The position numbers and the translations under genes are program-made. DNA of 50,355 nucleotides from Bacteroidales bacterium (GTDB lineage: Bacteria; Bacteroidota; Bacteroidia; Bacteroidales; UBA932). The DNA lies in assembly GCA_017437755.1 (NCBI GenBank), contig JAFRXI010000059.1, positions 1 to 50,355 of the forward strand, read 5' to 3'. The first letter of the stretch is position 1. Each line of letters begins with the position of its first letter. A model generated the notes under the pieces. It made no database searches, was not told the DNA's origin, and worked only from the letters and a program-made list of their open reading frames with translations. Shown one piece after another: positions 1,271 through 7,447 of the stretch.

Positions 1271-2017
1271 ATGAACGATATATTATTGGAAATCAAGGGG
1301 CTGCATGCCTCTGTGGAAGGTAAGGAGATACTCAGGGGAATAGATCTTGTTATCCGTCGCGGTGAAATCCATGCGGTTATGGGACCAAACGGGGCGGGGA
1401 AGAGCACCCTGTCGGCGGTGCTTGCCGGAAAGCCCGGATACGAGGTCACCTCCGGAGAGATTGTATTTGACGGAAAGGACCTCCTGGAACTGTCTCCGGA
1501 GGAGCGCTCATGGGCCGGAATCTTCCTTTCTTTCCAGTATCCAATTGAAATTCCGGGAGTTACCATAACCAATTTCATGAAGGCTGCGGTCGATGCACAC
1601 CGCAAGGCAAAGGGCGAGGAGCCGCTCAGCGCCGGCGGGTTCCTGCGTCTTATGAAGGAGAAGATGGCCCTGGTGCAGATGAAGGGAGAGTTCGCCAAGA
1701 GGGACGTGAATGCCGGCTTCTCCGGAGGCGAGAAAAAGCGCTGCGAGATCTTCCAGATGGCCATGCTGGACCCGGTGCTTTCAATCCTGGACGAAACCGA
1801 CTCGGGCCTGGATGTGGATGCCCTGAGGATAGTGTCAGACGGCGTGAACGCACTCCATACACCGGAAAAGTCAGCCATCGTGATTACCCACTACAAGAGG
1901 CTCCTGGACTATATCGTTCCCGATGTGGTCCATGTCCTCAAGGCTGGAAAGATAGTTGCCACAGGAGGAAGGGAGCTTGTGGAAATAATTGAAAATGAGG
2001 GATATGACAAGTTCTGA
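1271..2017 (+). CDS. sufC: SufC, ATPase of the SufBCD complex
   Basis: SufC is the ABC-type ATPase that drives Fe-S assembly on SufBCD. The 248-residue protein has Walker A GPNGAGKST (about residues 38-46), Q-loop FQYPIEIPG, the Suf-type signature FSGGEKKR, Walker B ending LSILDETDSGLD and the switch histidine in VITHYKR. A TTG two codons upstream (1265) is possible, but the ATG at 1271 gives the usual family start. The coding region runs into sufD by about 20 bases, indicating tight coupling. Length and motifs are those of a complete, functional SufC. Confidence 0.96.
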   Translation: MNDILLEIKGLHASVEGKEILRGIDLVIRRGEIHAVMGPNGAGKSTLSAVLAGKPGYEVTSGEIVFDGKDLLELSPEERSWAGIFLSFQYPIEIPGVTITNFMKAAVDAHRKAKGEEPLSAGGFLRLMKEKMALVQMKGEFAKRDVNAGFSGGEKKRCEIFQMAMLDPVLSILDETDSGLDVDALRIVSDGVNALHTPEKSAIVITHYKRLLDYIVPDVVHVLKAGKIVATGGRELVEIIENEGYDKF

Positions 2018-2645
2018 AAAGGTTTTTGTCATAGGACCCGACCAGATATCGGCGCTTCCTCCGGAGCGGTTCTCCGTGGGGACTGGGGAGGAGTTGCGGG
2101 TTGTCCTCGTGGTCCTTCCCGGTGTTTCGCCGGTAATTCCCATGACCTTTGACCTTGTGGGTGAAGGGGCGTCTGTCCGGGTATCGGCACTGTATCTTGC
2201 CGCCGGTTCCGGCAAGGTCCGTTTTGACGTGCTCATGCACCACCGCGCGCCGCATACCACATCCACCCAGCTTTTCAACGGCATCGCGGGAGGGGAGGCG
2301 TCAACCGTTTTCAGCGGAAGGATCATCATCGACGAGGGGACATTCGGTATAGACGCCGGACAGGAAAACCATAACATCCTGGTCTCCGACCGCGCCAGGG
2401 CCGAATCCGACCCACAGCTGGAAATCTATGCCGACGACGTGAAATGCTCCCACGGTGCCACCGTGGGCCGTCTTGACGAGCAGGAGCAGTTCTACATGCG
2501 CTCCCGCGGCATCCCCGAAGATGAGGCCCGCTTCCTCCAGCTCCTTTCCTTCGCCTCCCCGGTCCTCCAGTCCCTCCCTGACCACTGCCGCGAGGCCGTT
2601 TCCTCCCGCGTTTCCTCCGCAATCCGTTCACTTCTCGCCCAATGA
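1995..2645 (+). CDS. sufD: SufD, short form of the Fe-S assembly subunit
   Basis: SufD pairs with SufB in the Fe-S scaffold. The C-terminal core is clear: SufD-like DDVKCSHGATVGRLDEQEQFY (with the conserved cysteine and histidine), then MRSRGIPEDEARFLQLLSFA. The protein is only 216 residues, about half of a typical SufD, and it starts directly in the beta-helix part, so the N-terminal helical domain is missing. ATGs at 1995 and 2004 are both possible starts. The stop overlaps an ATGA that is the ancestral ispE start (2642), now separated from the rest of ispE by an insertion. Confidence 0.88.
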   Translation: MRDMTSSEKVFVIGPDQISALPPERFSVGTGEELRVVLVVLPGVSPVIPMTFDLVGEGASVRVSALYLAAGSGKVRFDVLMHHRAPHTTSTQLFNGIAGGEASTVFSGRIIIDEGTFGIDAGQENHNILVSDRARAESDPQLEIYADDVKCSHGATVGRLDEQEQFYMRSRGIPEDEARFLQLLSFASPVLQSLPDHCREAVSSRVSSAIRSLLAQ

Positions 2646-3580
2646 CCACCCATCCAAACGTCAAGATCAACCTCGGGCTGAATGTGCTGATTATATTTAT
2701 ATTGTTGTTGTGTTCATGTAGAGGTGTTTCTTCTATTTCAAAGGAGTCTTTATTAGAGTATGATAAAGATTCATTAGTGATTAATAATAAGATATCAAAG
2801 AAGGTTTGGAGGGGGTTGCATGTTTCAAGGATATAGGGATAGGCGATATTGATAATTTGGGAGAGAACATTCATGAGGGGATTCTTTATCTTCCAACGTA
2901 TTATTCTGGAGAGATAGAACCTGCCGGAAATCCAATAATTGTATCTTGCAACGGTGTTTAAGAAATAGGCAAACCTAAGGAAAAACTACGGGAAAAGCGT
3001 GATTCGATTTCGGATATTTATTATGAAAAGATAAGAGGAATTTTGGATGATAAACAAAAACTTCTATATAATCCAGCCGCTTTGAAAGCGGCTAAAACAG
3101 ACGAAATCCGCTTGTTGAACATTGACGTTAAGACCTCTTATAAGTTAGGCGAGATTAAGGCATGGTATGAAAAGGAAAAGCAATACCTTCGTGATAATTA
3201 TCCGGCAAAAGAACAACGAATAAAGAATAAAGAAAGTAGATTTAGAGCAGCAGTATTGCCAAAAGGTTAAGAATGTACTATCGGATCAGAAATACAGGCA
3301 ATGGCACAAGTTTCGGGATACGGCGTATATCAGATTCTTAAGCAAAGAGTTTGGTATGACGTATAGTAAAGCGTCAAAGTACATTGAGTTTGAGAATGAA
3401 CATCTATTGAGTATCAGCAAGATAAAGAATAGTCGGATTCCGATGTTAGAAAAGCAAAGAGCAAAAGAAGATGAATTTACTCTATGGAAGGAAAAGGTCC
3501 GTGGTTTAATGGATGCAGATGGGTACAGACATTGGTTGGTTTTCATTGAGAAGAAGCAAAAGAATAGGACAAGTAAATAA
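2642..3580 (+). pseudogene. Decayed exported-protein gene, head fused to ispE start
   Basis: No intact frame spans this stretch, but pieces in two frames join into one protein-like sequence. Frame 2 from 2642 reads the first 16 residues of IspE and then a lipoprotein-like signal (hydrophobic IIFILLL followed by CSC) and stops at 2834. Frame 1 takes over at about 2812 (ACFKDIGIGDIDNLGENIHE), meets an in-frame TAA at 2959 and continues to 3270. Frame 2 resumes near 3242 (LEQQYCQKVKNVLSDQKYRQ) and runs to 3580. At least two frameshifts and one nonsense codon are needed. The product, probably exported, is rich in K, E, Y and R. I do not recognise the family. Its start was probably lost at the left junction. 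Confidence 0.7.
2645..2690 (+). repeat. 46-base direct repeat, left copy (orphan head of ispE)
   Basis: This copy is identical over 46 bases to 4451-4496 and encodes IspE residues from the second codon on (TTHPNVKINLGLNVL). Here it still follows the ATG that overlaps the sufD stop, so it marks the ancestral sufD-ispE junction. Identity ends at 2690, where AT-rich foreign sequence begins. Confidence 0.93.
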
Positions 3581-4450
3581 TGAGTATCTATGAAGCAGGT
3601 TTTTAATGGTTGGGCGTTATTGTTTTTACTTTTATGTACTAGTTTAGTGGTAGTAACAGTTAAAGCCCAGGTTCCTCAGAGTTATCGTCAGAGATTGGTG
3701 TCCCGAACATGGTCCCCAACTAACATTCCTGAAGCCACGTATTCTTTTTCGACAGATTCCGTTTTTTTTCGATACAATAACCCTTCGTTGTCGGTGGATG
3801 CTTCTGCTGATGCTGGGTATTATTTTAGTGAGACTTTTGATACGGTTTTTAATTCAAGTAAGGTTGGAGTGCAAGAATTGGGTACTTTCTTGATAATGGA
3901 ATCCACACAGGGTAGAGCCTTTGCGTTCAGGATAGTTTCCATAGATACCGACACTTTGAAATTTTGGACCAATAATCACTTATGGATATGGCATTCCGTA
4001 GAATAAGAAGGCTGTTATTATTTGTCTTTTTCTGGTTGTCGTTGTCCTTACTTTTGGGATGTGTAGAAAAGCGAGAGGGAAATGAAACTGCCACAAAGGA
4101 TGTTGACAAGATAGAGAAATTAAAGTATATTTTCACAGAGGAGTATACGGGTAATTTAGACAAAAGGGTTACAAGCATTGTTTCAAATGGGGGGTATGTT
4201 CCAGATTGGAAAGAGGCGAAGAAGAACAAGACGTTCCGTCAGTTAGAATATACTATTCCTATTATATCGGATTATTCGATAATTGCCATTCATTCTGGAA
4301 TAATAAATGGACGTCCAAGAGTAACCAAGTTTCAGATGATTCAGGAATTGAATATAAAGCTTCGGGAACAAGGACAGACGAGCAAGGTGTTGTCAACAGA
4401 ATATCTGGACATGATAACAGAAGTTTCGAATTATACAGGAAGCAATGTCA
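2691..4450. other. AT-rich inserted block between duplicated ispE heads
   Basis: A 1,760-base block of clearly different composition (for example 23 of 60 bases are G or C at 3241-3300, against 37 of 60 at 4981-5040 in ispE) is bounded exactly by the two 46-base ispE-head copies. It carries a decayed gene, a small intact secreted-protein gene and a 3'-truncated lipoprotein gene, all on the plus strand. I found no transposase, integrase or terminal inverted repeat. Recombination between the repeats would restore a normal sufD-ispE overlap. An assembly chimera is the main alternative. Confidence 0.8.
3590..4006 (+). CDS. Small secreted protein of unknown function
   Basis: A 138-residue protein with a clear signal peptide (MKQVFNGW, then hydrophobic ALLFLLLCTSLVVVTV and a likely cut after KAQ). 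The mature part is rich in short beta-like stretches with alternating aromatic residues (YSFSTDSVFFRYN, GYYFSETFDTVF, LKFWTNNHLWIWHS), which suggests a small beta-barrel or lipocalin-like fold, but this is inference. It lies in the AT-rich insert, nine bases after the decayed gene, and overlaps the following lipoprotein gene by 25 bases, so the three were probably one operon in the donor. I do not recognise a family. Confidence 0.65.
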   Translation: MKQVFNGWALLFLLLCTSLVVVTVKAQVPQSYRQRLVSRTWSPTNIPEATYSFSTDSVFFRYNNPSLSVDASADAGYYFSETFDTVFNSSKVGVQELGTFLIMESTQGRAFAFRIVSIDTDTLKFWTNNHLWIWHSVE

Positions 4451-4527
4451 ACCACCCATCCAAACGTCAAGATCAACCTCGGGCTGAATGTGCTGAGGAG
4501 GAGGGAGGACGGTTATCACGATCTTGA
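3982..4527 (+). CDS. Lipoprotein of unknown function, 3' end replaced at the insertion junction
   Basis: The frame begins with a basic N-region (MDMAFRRIRR), a hydrophobic core (LLLFVFFWLSLSLLLGC) and a lipobox cysteine followed by VEKREGN, so it is a lipoprotein. The foreign part ends with EVSNYTGSNVN at the right junction (4450). Beyond it the frame runs through the ispE head in the wrong phase (HPSKRQDQPRAECAEEEGG) and stops at 4527. The natural C-terminus is therefore lost. An ATG at 3988 is an alternative start. No family was recognised, and the product may be nonfunctional. Confidence 0.6.
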   Translation: MDMAFRRIRRLLLFVFFWLSLSLLLGCVEKREGNETATKDVDKIEKLKYIFTEEYTGNLDKRVTSIVSNGGYVPDWKEAKKNKTFRQLEYTIPIISDYSIIAIHSGIINGRPRVTKFQMIQELNIKLREQGQTSKVLSTEYLDMITEVSNYTGSNVNHPSKRQDQPRAECAEEEGGRLSRS

Positions 4528-5293
4528 TACCGTTTTTCTGCCGTACCATGAGATTCACGATACCCTGGAGATAATCTCCGGCGACGACTGGAGCCGGACT
4601 TCGGCGGCCATGTTTGAGATATATTCCCCGGACGAGGTTGCCCAGGGGATAGCCCCGGACGGGTCGCTGATGATAACAATAGCCCGCCGTGGCGGAGTGG
4701 ACTGGGACCCGCTGGACGACCTCACGGCTAATGCATACGGTATTCTGAAAGAGGACTTCAAGCTGCCTCCGGTGAAGATTTTCCTGGAAAAGACATCGCC
4801 CGTGGGGGCGGGCCTCGGGGGAGGATCCGCCGATGCCGCCTTTGCCCTCAGGATGCTGAATGAAATGTTCTCCCTGGGGCTCGACGACGAGAGGCTTGCC
4901 GAGTACGCCTCCCGCCTCGGGAGCGACTGCGCCTTCTTCATTTACAACCGCCCCATGAGCGGCCGTGGCCGCGGGGAAGTCCTCTGTCCCGTGGATGTCC
5001 CGCTCGACGGATATGAAATCAAGGTGGTGGTGCCGGAAGGGATTGCCGTTTCCACGAGGGAGGCCTATTCCGGAGTTACGCCAAGGGTCCCGGAACTGCC
5101 TCTTGAGGATGCTCTCAAAAGGCCTGTCGGGCAGTGGAAGGATCTGGTTGTCAATGATTTTGAGACGTCGGTATTTGCAAAGCACCCTGAGCTTGCCGCA
5201 GTTAAGCAGTCCCTGTACGATTCCGGTGCCGTCTTCGCCTCCCTTTCCGGATCCGGCGCCGCCCTATTCGGTATTTATCGTACTATTTGTTAA
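4445..5293 (+). CDS. ispE: IspE, 4-diphosphocytidyl-2-C-methyl-D-erythritol kinase
   Basis: IspE phosphorylates CDP-methylerythritol in the non-mevalonate isoprenoid pathway. The 282-residue protein has the family N-terminus (THPNVKINLGLNVLRRREDGYHDLDTVF), the GHMP kinase ATP loop PVGAGLGGGSADAAFALRML, the segment SDCAFF, and the C-terminal glycine motif LSGSGAALFGIY. The start is unusual: the ancestral ATG overlapped the sufD stop at 2642, whereas the present ATG at 4445 is supplied by the inserted block and adds one residue (MSTTH rather than MTTH). Expression must now come from within the insert or by read-through from suf. Confidence 0.95.
   Translation: MSTTHPNVKINLGLNVLRRREDGYHDLDTVFLPYHEIHDTLEIISGDDWSRTSAAMFEIYSPDEVAQGIAPDGSLMITIARRGGVDWDPLDDLTANAYGILKEDFKLPPVKIFLEKTSPVGAGLGGGSADAAFALRMLNEMFSLGLDDERLAEYASRLGSDCAFFIYNRPMSGRGRGEVLCPVDVPLDGYEIKVVVPEGIAVSTREAYSGVTPRVPELPLEDALKRPVGQWKDLVVNDFETSVFAKHPELAAVKQSLYDSGAVFASLSGSGAALFGIYRTIC
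4451..4496 (+). repeat. 46-base direct repeat, right copy (functional head of ispE)
   Basis: This is the second perfect copy of 2645-2690. It is in frame with the whole ispE gene. The six bases just before it (ATGTCA, 4445-4450) come from the insert side and give ispE a new start codon, with AGGAAG five bases upstream as a possible ribosome site. Confidence 0.93.
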
Positions 5294-5298: not shown

Positions 5299-5323
5299 CG
5301 GGATTTTTTGCACCACAAGGCCG

Positions 5324-6166
5324 ATGATGACACTGGACGAACTGATAATCAGGATAAAATTCCTGATAAAGATGCATAAGAGGCTTAACCTCAAGGCTCC
5401 TTCCACTTTCAACGAAAAGTTGCAGTGGCTCAAGCTCCATGACCGCCGTCCGGAATATTCCCGCATGGTAGATAAGGTTGAGGCGAAAAAATGGGCGGAG
5501 GAGATCCTCGGCCCCGGGCACATCATCCCGGACATAGCCGTTTATGACAGCATCAGGGAGGTACCCTGGGAAAGCCTTCCAGAACGGTTTGTAATGAAAT
5601 GCGCCCATGACAGCGGTGGTGTCGCGGTCTGCGGCAACAGGGCCGCTTTCGATGTAAGGAAGGCCCGCCGCCGTCTTTCCCGACGCTCCCGCAAGAATTA
5701 TTACCATATCACCCAGGAATGGCCTTACAAGAGCGTGAGGCCGAGGATCCTTGTGGAGGAATTCCTCTCCGACGGGGATCCCGGAGGCCTGAGGGACTAC
5801 AAGTTCTTCTGCTTCGGGGGCAGGGTCCACAGCGTCATGATCTGCGTCGACAGGGGTATCGGCGATCCAAAGTTCTATTTCTTTGACAGGGAATGGAACC
5901 TCCTGAGGCTCAATATCCGGGGGAAGCAGGCACCTGAGGGGTTCACGGTTTCAAAGCCCGAGGGGATTGATGAGATGTTCTCTTTCGCGGAAAGGCTTTC
6001 CGCCGGGATCCCCTTTGCGAGGGTCGACCTTTACAATGTCAGTGGAAAGATCTATTTCGGGGAACTTACCCTTTATCCCAAGAGCGGTTATGATTCCAAT
6101 CTCCTCCCTGAGACGGATGATCTTTTCGGGAGTCTTCTCAGTCTAGACAGTCTTCAATCGAAGTGA
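5324..6166 (+). CDS. TupA-like ATP-grasp protein, surface polysaccharide biosynthesis
   Basis: A 280-residue cytoplasmic protein of the TupA-like ATP-grasp type found in capsule and teichuronopeptide loci, where such enzymes are thought to join amino or carboxyl groups to sugars. Recognisable parts are TFNEKLQWLKLHDRRPEYSR, VMKCAHDSGGVAVCG (nucleotide-binding strand and lysine), VEEFLSDGDPGGLRDYKFFC and the Mg-binding end ARVDLYNVSGKIYFGELTLYP. ATGs at 5324 and 5327 are adjacent. Its 3' end overlaps the convergent dehydrogenase gene by 29 bases. The acceptor is unknown; the neighbouring kdtA and nonulosonate genes suggest a lipid A-core or capsule glycan. Confidence 0.82.
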   Translation: MMTLDELIIRIKFLIKMHKRLNLKAPSTFNEKLQWLKLHDRRPEYSRMVDKVEAKKWAEEILGPGHIIPDIAVYDSIREVPWESLPERFVMKCAHDSGGVAVCGNRAAFDVRKARRRLSRRSRKNYYHITQEWPYKSVRPRILVEEFLSDGDPGGLRDYKFFCFGGRVHSVMICVDRGIGDPKFYFFDREWNLLRLNIRGKQAPEGFTVSKPEGIDEMFSFAERLSAGIPFARVDLYNVSGKIYFGELTLYPKSGYDSNLLPETDDLFGSLLSLDSLQSK

Positions 6167-7340
6167 AGCCGTAGACGGACGGGATGCCGGCCTTGAACGG
6201 GGCGGAGAGGTCTTTGCCGCCGGTGAGGAGCCTTCCGTCCTCTCCAATGATGCTCTCGTGGCGCACCGACTGCCCCCAGCGGAGGATTTCATCGATCTGT
6301 CTTGTCTCCAGGCCGAGTTTTTCCGCCATCCATTTTACGATGCAAACTCCGTAGTAAATGTCGTCAAGGAAGAAGCGGTGGTTGTAATCCATCGAGAATT
6401 TCCCTTCCGGAGTCCTTACCACCGGTGTTTTGATCTCTCCGAGGGACTCGGATTCCAGGAACGACTGCTTGATGTCGTTGATGTCCGACAGGTAGCAGTA
6501 CCTTTCCAGTGCCAGGTAATCCAGCATGTTGGAGAAATCCCGGTCCGGGAATCTTGCCTTAATCGCCTCTCTCACAGCAGAATAGTCATTGTCAAGACGT
6601 TCCATTACAGAGGCGGACAGGTCGTCGAAGTCCCGGTAGAAATACGGGACTTCCCCTTCGCTGTCCCAGATTCCGCCGTATCGTTTCCACAGCGAGAACG
6701 ACCTGGAAGTGTGGATTATCTGGTTGTCCACGGAAAGGGTGAGGGACAGGAACCTGTCGTTTTTCTCTACAAGGCCCATGTGGAGATGGCGGTAGCAGAC
6801 CTGGTCAAAGAAATCTTCCTTGACCGTCTTGAAATACTTGTCGGGGTAAACTGCGGCGCAGGTCCTCTCCTTGAATCCATAGGTCACGCCCCTGTGGCCG
6901 TATTCCATGATGCGGCATATCCAGGGGATAAGGCCGAAGGCAAAGGCTACCAGGTTGTCAAGGGAGAACTCCCTCCGGATCTCATCGACCATCCAGTTCC
7001 AGCCCCCCTGCCCGTAAAGGGTTCCTACAAAGACTTCCTTTTCCCGGCTGAGGTAAGGTGCTATCCGGTGCAGGGCCACGCGGTATTTGTGGACCGGCAT
7101 GCAGAAGACTACGTAGTCTGCCTGGGGAAACAGTTCGGCCGGGTCGTCCGAAGCTTTTGAGATGGGGCCGCGGAACACATCCAGGACCTTTCCGGAAGGG
7201 TCGTGCCACTGCAGTTCAATCTCCGGAGCCCACTTTTCGGGTTTGGAGGTATAGACCGACACTTCGAAGGATGAGTCCTTCAGGAACGGTATCAGGGAAT
7301 GTGCGCTGTTTCCACCTCCGCAAACAACAAGTCTTTTCAT
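6138..7340 (-). CDS. Opine-dehydrogenase-like NAD(P)-dependent enzyme
   Basis: A 400-residue protein with an N-terminal Rossmann fold (MKRLVVCGGGNSAHSLIPFL, where GGGNSAH is the dinucleotide loop) and a helical C-terminal domain of the octopine/nopaline dehydrogenase type (YLSDINDIKQSFLESES, then NHRFFLDDIYYGVCIVKWMA, ending in a histidine-containing RWGQSVRHESIIG). Such enzymes condense an amino acid with a keto acid by reductive amination. No signal peptide is present. It faces the ATP-grasp gene tail to tail and shares 29 bases with it, which may indicate a linked role in modifying surface glycans, but that is inference. The substrate is unknown. Confidence 0.75.
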   Translation of the reverse strand: MKRLVVCGGGNSAHSLIPFLKDSSFEVSVYTSKPEKWAPEIELQWHDPSGKVLDVFRGPISKASDDPAELFPQADYVVFCMPVHKYRVALHRIAPYLSREKEVFVGTLYGQGGWNWMVDEIRREFSLDNLVAFAFGLIPWICRIMEYGHRGVTYGFKERTCAAVYPDKYFKTVKEDFFDQVCYRHLHMGLVEKNDRFLSLTLSVDNQIIHTSRSFSLWKRYGGIWDSEGEVPYFYRDFDDLSASVMERLDNDYSAVREAIKARFPDRDFSNMLDYLALERYCYLSDINDIKQSFLESESLGEIKTPVVRTPEGKFSMDYNHRFFLDDIYYGVCIVKWMAEKLGLETRQIDEILRWGQSVRHESIIGEDGRLLTGGKDLSAPFKAGIPSVYGFTSIEDCLD

Positions 7341-7363
7341 TCTGAATGAGCGTATTCGGTCGA

Positions 7364-7371
7364 CAAAGGTA
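7364..7371 (-). promoter_or_regulatory. Putative -7 box (TACCTTTG) for the opine-dehydrogenase-like gene
   Basis: Reading the minus strand, TACCTTTG lies 23 bases before the ATG at 7340 and matches TAnnTTTG. I see no convincing -33 element. Confidence 0.4.
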
Positions 7372-7403
7372 ACTATAAAAAACGAGAATCGGGCTCCTTC
7401 ATG

Positions 7404-7436
7404 TTTGGAATATACTGCATTTAAGGTTATCTTTGT
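7404..7436 (+). promoter_or_regulatory. Putative promoter of kdtA (TTTG, 21 bases, TATCTTTG)
   Basis: TTTG at 7404-7407 and TATCTTTG at 7429-7436 are 21 bases apart, as in the Bacteroides consensus. The box ends 11 bases before the ATG at 7448, so the mRNA would have almost no leader. The same stretch can also be read as a frameshifted KdtA N-terminus, which weakens the call. Confidence 0.5.
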
Positions 7437-7447
7437 CGCCTTGCGCC

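Follow-up and report, generated by a model that had tools for sequence, protein, structure and literature searches.

A foreign AT-rich fragment between two copies of the ispE head at the sufD-ispE junction of a Bacteroidales genome

How can foreign DNA lie across the start of a gene such as ispE and leave that gene whole? The question is raised by the sufD-ispE junction of a Bacteroidales bacterium (assembly GCA_017437755.1, contig JAFRXI010000059.1), where the first bases of ispE occur twice and AT-rich DNA fills the space between the two copies. The window analyzed here is one complete contig of 50,355 bases from a 76-contig assembly with a completeness of 84.87%, and the genome is referred to below as G000. 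Our results indicate that a fragment of foreign DNA entered this junction together with a duplication of its target, and that two further inserts of the same genome are built alike.

The duplicated ispE head and its empty site in relatives

The 46 bases that follow the ispE ATG are present at 2645-2690 and again at 4451-4496, with an identity of 46/46 and a start-to-start distance of 1,806 bases. A scan of the whole window found no longer exact direct repeat, the runner-up measuring 21 bases. The 1,760 bases between the copies have a G+C content of 0.368 versus 0.561 for the window, and none of 2,000 random segments of equal length from the sampled genome deviated as strongly from its own flanks. 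A sequence-only reading of the window had described both the perfect duplication and the AT-rich DNA that it encloses, and both descriptions hold. The junction is organized as follows.

1989..2645, plus strand: sufD, the upstream gene in the suf operon (Pfam SUFBD_core, E 2.4e-47)
2645..2690, plus strand: left copy of the 46-base target duplication, covering ispE codons 2-16 and base 1 of codon 17 (46/46 versus 4451-4496)
2691..4450, plus strand: inserted DNA, 1,760 bases, G+C 0.368
4451..4496, plus strand: right copy of the 46-base target duplication (46/46 versus the left copy)
4445..5293, plus strand: intact ispE with GHMP kinase N and C domains, its start ATG TCA contributed by the inserted DNA

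The left copy keeps its ATG at 2642 and, as had been proposed, the ATGA overlap with sufD, whose stop lies at 2645. On the right, the final bases of the insert, ATG TCA, abut the duplicated bases, and the resulting IspE is one residue longer (MSTTHP versus MTTHP). The right copy thus carries the full gene behind a start codon taken from the insert, and ispE, as the sequence-only reading had it, survives through the duplication of its own head. Between positions 2400 and 4700 we counted nine sigma-70-like promoter matches versus 4.9 expected, and the Bacteroidetes-type promoter pattern had no match within the insert.

Comparison with relatives supports the view that the DNA between the copies is an insertion. 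Matches to ispE were obtained in 92 of 101 genomes, G000 included, and the best 29 of the 91 relatives' loci, all from the same genus, were fetched. In 20 of these 29 loci sufD lies directly upstream of ispE with a gap of at most about 110 bases, and in 10 of the 20 the two genes share the same 4-base ATGA overlap that is seen here at the left copy; the remaining nine loci have no sufD within the fetched upstream DNA (up to 1.5 kb). The arrangement of G000 was not found in these relatives, and an ancestral arrangement later lost in them was ruled out since they show the sufD-ispE overlap. IspE of the relatives begins with M-I-T-(H/N)-P or similar, which identifies the left copy, MTTHP, as the ancestral head. 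Across the 29 loci, the best match of a relative's head to the 46-mer was only 39/46; the second copy is therefore most simply derived from the species' own gene. A degenerate ispE-head pattern matched in 300 of 400 genus genomes, 27 of which had two or more matches on one strand. By eye, G000 was the only one of the 300 with two same-strand heads on one contig, a count from which contig breaks could conceal others. Within these limits, the insertion seems confined to the G000 lineage.

An apparently captured fragment with a decayed operon

The gene content of the insert suggests where such DNA may come from. Five open reading frames (ORFs) or remnants can be read on the plus strand, two of them remnants of a gene pair that stands side by side in genome G250 and that we call alpha and beta.

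2642..2836, plus strand: chimeric ORF, the ispE head in frame with a lipoprotein-type signal peptide (LIIFILLLCSC, by eye) and then broken; weak match to the N-terminus of G250 alpha (E 0.09)
2860..2982, plus strand: remnant of the alpha gene with an in-frame stop; tblastn match to G250 alpha residues 307-347, 49% identity, E 1.3e-8
2962..3580, plus strand: remnant of the beta gene, frameshifted near 3235; tblastn match to G250 beta in two frames, E 4e-19 and 2e-15
3590..4006, plus strand: exported orphan ORF of 138 aa, signal peptide by eye
3982..4527, plus strand: lipoprotein-like orphan ORF, signal peptide by eye, its 3' part crossing the right copy in another frame

Both genes are intact in G250. 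The alpha product is a lipoprotein that resembles transglutaminases and has an F5/8-type domain (Pfam E 1.2e-4 and 2.1e-4, both sub-threshold), and the beta product is an exported protein of about 270 residues that is LTXXQ/Spy-like only by a weak Pfam LTXXQ match (E 0.27). The cargo keeps the alpha-beta order, with alpha reduced to its signal-peptide region (the weak match at E 0.09) and some 41 residues (307-347), and beta lacking its first 60-70 residues. One stop and two frame changes break the remnants, which are also internally deleted relative to G250. No match at E 0.01 appeared in 20 shuffles used as a control for the alpha and beta tblastn searches. Judged by these alignments, the left half of the cargo is a decayed alpha-beta operon. 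A search of the other 399 genomes of the genus found a beta relative in 4. One locus (G388:C2, L040, 6138-12127), beside a ClpB-like gene, contains beta, a 527-aa lipoprotein with a hydrophobic C-terminus, an alpha homologue and small membrane proteins with a common C-terminal tail; the locus has internal direct repeats and may be a toxin-immunity array.

The boundaries of the cargo point to a piece cut out of a longer sequence. On the left, the reading frame of the ispE head continues into the hydrophobic core of a signal peptide, so that the original start was lost and replaced. On the right, the ORF at 3982-4527 reads into the right copy in another frame, and its own natural end was therefore probably lost as well. 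Beginning inside a signal peptide, decayed in its left part and ending in an ORF that enters ispE, the cargo looks like a captured fragment, and the idea of a discrete cassette finds no support. The earlier proposal that the cargo encodes exported proteins stands for the ORFs at 3590-4006 and 3982-4527, both judged by eye, and fails for about 2691-3580, which is frameshifted, stop-broken and deleted relative to G250. Neither orphan ORF had a match outside G000 in 101 genomes plus 334 genomes of the order, or in viral contigs or genome contigs, and no second copy of the cargo was found elsewhere in the G000 assembly, itself 84.87% complete.

No integrase, transposase, nuclease or restriction-modification gene was matched in the six forward-strand cargo ORFs searched against Pfam, NCBIfam, PHROGs and PADLOC, a search that did not extend to minus-strand ORFs, and Pfam, NCBIfam and PHROGs returned nothing usable for the cargo ORFs. 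The sole PADLOC hit, DruH3 at E 0.0034, is weak and was treated as chance. Scores for terminal inverted repeats lay at the shuffle median in the two cargoes tested. The absence of transposase, integrase and inverted repeats noted by the sequence-only reading is thereby borne out within this scope. A phage or plasmid origin was considered and set aside: the 3590-4006 ORF matched no phage protein and the 3982 ORF no plasmid protein, the whole-cargo DNA was unmatched in plasmids and phages, and a 30-base stretch of the cargo had no exact match in viral contigs.

Two further inserts and the mode of entry

We searched for other DNA enclosed in the same manner in a sample of 2.03 Mb, made up of 829,649 readable bases of G000 (window included; 29% of the assembly) and of three relatives, G013, G016 and G041, with 400,000, 400,000 and 398,470 bases, respectively. 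The rule retained exact direct repeats of at least 25 bases that lie 400-8,000 bases apart and whose flanks are dissimilar (alignment score below 22, the 99% point for random pairs being 16). Among 41 repeats of at least 25 bases, 37 were dropped by the flank rule and four were isolated, three in G000 and one in G016. All four enclose DNA of lower G+C than their flanks (inner versus flank 0.37/0.56 for ispE, 0.42/0.56 for G000:C17 5304/7410, 0.47/0.54 for G000:C14 27542/28996 and 0.39/0.48 for G016:C1 238825/240193). Random segments of equal length deviated as strongly 4, 24 and 28 times per 2,000 for the C17, C14 and G016 cases, respectively. The G016 repeat is a 25-base AT-rich palindromic sequence beside what we read as a Fic-like gene; it may be an operator and is not counted as an insert. 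The two other G000 cases are the following.

G000:C17 (L089) 5304-7444: 35 bases of the lgt tail repeated on either side of a 2.07-kb AT-rich insert (Pfam LGT for the target gene)
G000:C14 27542/28996 (L100 7542-9063): repeat of a hydrolase-gene tail, 239 bases in the left copy, around tRNA-Pro(TGG) and hicA

The lgt insert contains a partial Rhs gene (Rhs core, NCBIfam TIGR03696, E 5e-17) and, downstream of it, an exported part. In all 11 relatives' loci fetched, lgt stops just after a tail resembling the duplicated one, and in five of the 11 a relative of the gene that follows lgt here lies on the same strand at most about 800 bases downstream, versus 2.2 kb in G000. The target on C14 is a predicted hydrolase gene with no Pfam match. 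Its right copy retains 68 of the 239 bases (67 identical) and is missing 171 bases between two GCGGCA hexamers, after which the natural end of the gene follows, as judged from the one genus relative found, which ends likewise. This 171-base gap at GCGGCA fits a second template jump or a later deletion. The insert carries the toxin gene hicA (Pfam HicA_toxin, E 2.8e-10), a partner gene called hicB-like from its position, and a tRNA-Pro of which a second copy stands elsewhere on the contig (L101 10206-10280). Both inserts share the build of the ispE insert, and no motif common to the three targets (ispE, lgt and the hydrolase gene) was found.

A foreign fragment that entered the sufD-ispE junction with a 46-base target duplication, most likely by template switching, in a process that occurred at least twice more in G000, is the explanation that we prefer, with a probability of roughly 0.6. 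Judged by its genes, the fragment would come from a related, Bacteroidales-like genome and from a locus there that is AT-rich and changes fast, and on joining the junction it would have become flanked by 46 duplicated target bases. A broken replication fork would depart from the chromosome at 2690, copy the foreign fragment and re-enter 46 bases behind its point of departure, thereby duplicating that stretch. The insertion would have survived because the right copy and the ATG at the fragment end gave a complete ispE. In the three cases the targets and the cargoes are unrelated, the duplications measure 46, 35 and 239 bases, and no recombinase was found among the matches, all of which argues for a sequence-independent event that copies its target. 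We infer that replicative template switching is the likeliest such event, in preference to the fill-in of staggered nicks. Both lgt and ispE are essential in well-studied bacteria, and inserts at gene ends, these two included, are what survival would select, as only gene-restoring duplications persist.

Several points weigh against this explanation. The scan rule was drawn up with the three G000 cases already in view, and these include the ispE finding itself. Isolated repeats numbered zero in G013 and G041 and one, doubtful, in G016. Within the G000 sample such repeats flank only 3 of 18 AT-rich blocks (<43% G+C), the other 15 having none. The duplication rests on the assembled sequence. Finally, Ku, the usual end-joining protein, was matched in one of 151 genus genomes and not in G000, an absence that is weak evidence in an assembly that is 84.87% complete, and end joining without Ku exists. 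The lone Ku gene (G106:C152, L165) may be a contamination or a recent gain.

The same data bear on three other explanations, each of which accounts for part of the picture. The insert could be all that survives of a site-specific integrative element: its attL and attR would be the two 46-base copies and its attB the ispE head, with the integrase deleted and a cis-mobilizable scrap left behind. Such elements also leave a perfect direct repeat around foreign DNA and a re-headed intact target gene, a 46-base identity block is within the range of att sites, cis-mobilizable elements (CIMEs) and target-re-heading elements leave comparable remnants, and the cargo does bear internal deletions. We nevertheless regard this origin as unlikely given the lack of an integrase match in the cargo ORFs searched, the two other inserts at targets that share no motif, the absence of a second same-strand, same-contig head from the other 299 matching genomes (of 400; contig breaks could hide some), and the lack of any exact match to 41 bases of the 46-mer among IMG/VR contigs.

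Opposite-strand nicks 46 bases apart, filled in and ligated to a fragment by a nuclease or a transposase of an unknown type, would yield a single perfect duplication of any length and with no target motif, and long, variable duplications around restriction-modification genes have been reported (PMC3031569, PMC3874152). This route appears quite improbable here: the cargo ORFs searched contain no nuclease or transposase match, Ku is unmatched in 150 of the 151 genomes, and the 171-base gap in the hydrolase copy would need a second event. At least as improbable is an assembly artefact in which short overlaps led a metagenomic assembler to link the contig of sufD and ispE with a foreign one. The assembly is fragmented and the cargo is foreign in composition, but such an artefact would require the identical 46 bases on either side of the cargo, and the unequal repeat lengths (46, 35, and 68 left of 239) do not correspond to one fixed k-mer overlap. 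Moreover, relatives of the cargo are present in the same genus, and the start codon supplied by the cargo is in the correct ispE frame.

The sampled stretches contain further features. On C26 of G000 (L112, 4310-7065), a small orphan ORF comes after an Rhs gene whose C-terminal end is AT-rich, and no exact repeat of at least 20 bases surrounds it in the scanned stretch. Other repeats were set aside by eye: those at C15 37142/38995, C14 34151/35244, and G016 64225 and 69433 as tandem paralogues, that at C1 45317 as nonribosomal peptide synthetase (NRPS)-like modules, and that at C17 568/1698 as flanks like repetitive extragenic palindromic (REP) sequences around a gene resembling a REP-associated tyrosine transposase (RAYT). 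The latter gene (G000:C17, L089, 568-1729) is Y1-transposase-like by our own reading, has no Pfam match and a 32-base flanking repeat, and is probably REP-associated. In the window, a TupA-like ATP-grasp gene lies immediately 3' of ispE (5324-6166, Pfam E 9e-56), and exact matches to the Bacteroidetes-type promoter pattern occur at 7404, 35460, 43403 and 48550, all outside the insert (four versus 0.37 expected).

Comparison with known systems

One parallel is offered by CIMEs and by integrative elements whose attB is the 5' end of a gene, such as SXT-like elements that re-head prfC. The ispE insert resembles them in its perfect direct repeat and in a host gene re-headed by the element's sequence; it differs in that no integrase was found in the cargo ORFs searched, no repeated use of the site was seen in the genus, and the other inserts lie at unrelated sites. 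Transposon insertion likewise leaves one direct target duplication, but 46 bases far exceeds ordinary target-site duplications, as had been pointed out from the sequence, and the insert shows neither terminal inverted repeats nor a transposase match. For comparison, IS1 duplicates 8-10 bp and IS5 4 bp (PMC3031569).

A more distant likeness is found in plants. In a study of Arabidopsis transposed genes, direct repeats longer than 30 bp flank 18 of 126 such genes versus 2 of 102 other genes, 13 of these 18 have a repeat that matches the uninterrupted target of a sister species, and circles and recombination through repeats are discussed (PMC2869330). The moved DNA there also lies between long direct repeats that match an empty target, but this is a plant system and has neither a decayed bacterial cargo nor a re-headed essential gene.

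The closest counterpart concerns Helicobacter pylori, for whose restriction-modification genes insertion with long target duplication was reportedly described by Nobusato et al. in 2000 and Furuta et al. in 2010. Later papers use the term for H. pylori insertions that often carry restriction-modification genes (PMC3031569, PMC1643837, PMC4978471, PMC3874152, PMC3154945), the duplications being long, of varying size and on the order of 100 bp (PMC3874152). The ispE insert agrees with this kind in being absent from the relatives' junction and flanked by a duplication longer than transposons make. As in the H. pylori cases, foreign genes lie between long direct target repeats of varying length and a relative has the uninterrupted site. 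Unlike them, the inserts here carry a decayed operon plus two orphan ORFs in one case, a partial Rhs gene in another and a tRNA-Pro with hicA in the third, and the duplications measure 46, 35 and 239 bases rather than about 100 bp, a comparison made through the later papers. A full-text literature search for Bacteroides-group reports of long target duplication gave only a Helicobacter enzyme paper, the full-text literature searched held no report of Rhs genes flanked by direct repeats, and nothing closer to the present case was found in further literature.

How unrelated DNA is integrated by bacteria without a transposase or an integrase is an open question, and the H. pylori reports, in the portions of the literature searched, give no mechanism for insertion with long target duplication. 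If it took place three times in G000, with unrelated cargo and each time at the end of a gene, restriction genes would hold no special place in the process, and the three cases suggest a general, poorly understood route of DNA uptake that spares essential genes. More tentatively, and as a possibility that we hold to be doubtful, the lineage may own a functioning mechanism, independent of sequence, that joins kilobase-sized pieces of foreign DNA to the chromosome, each time with a duplication of tens to hundreds of target bases, and that makes insertions at gene ends survivable, essential genes included. If so, its general signature would be AT-rich DNA enclosed by long direct repeats that stand isolated; in the form of isolated repeats of at least 25 bases around compositionally foreign DNA, this signature can be counted across thousands of genomes. 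The kind of insertion is already known, while its host group and cargo appear to be new within the literature searched. The ispE locus is best read as an insertion with long target duplication whose cargo is other than restriction-modification genes.

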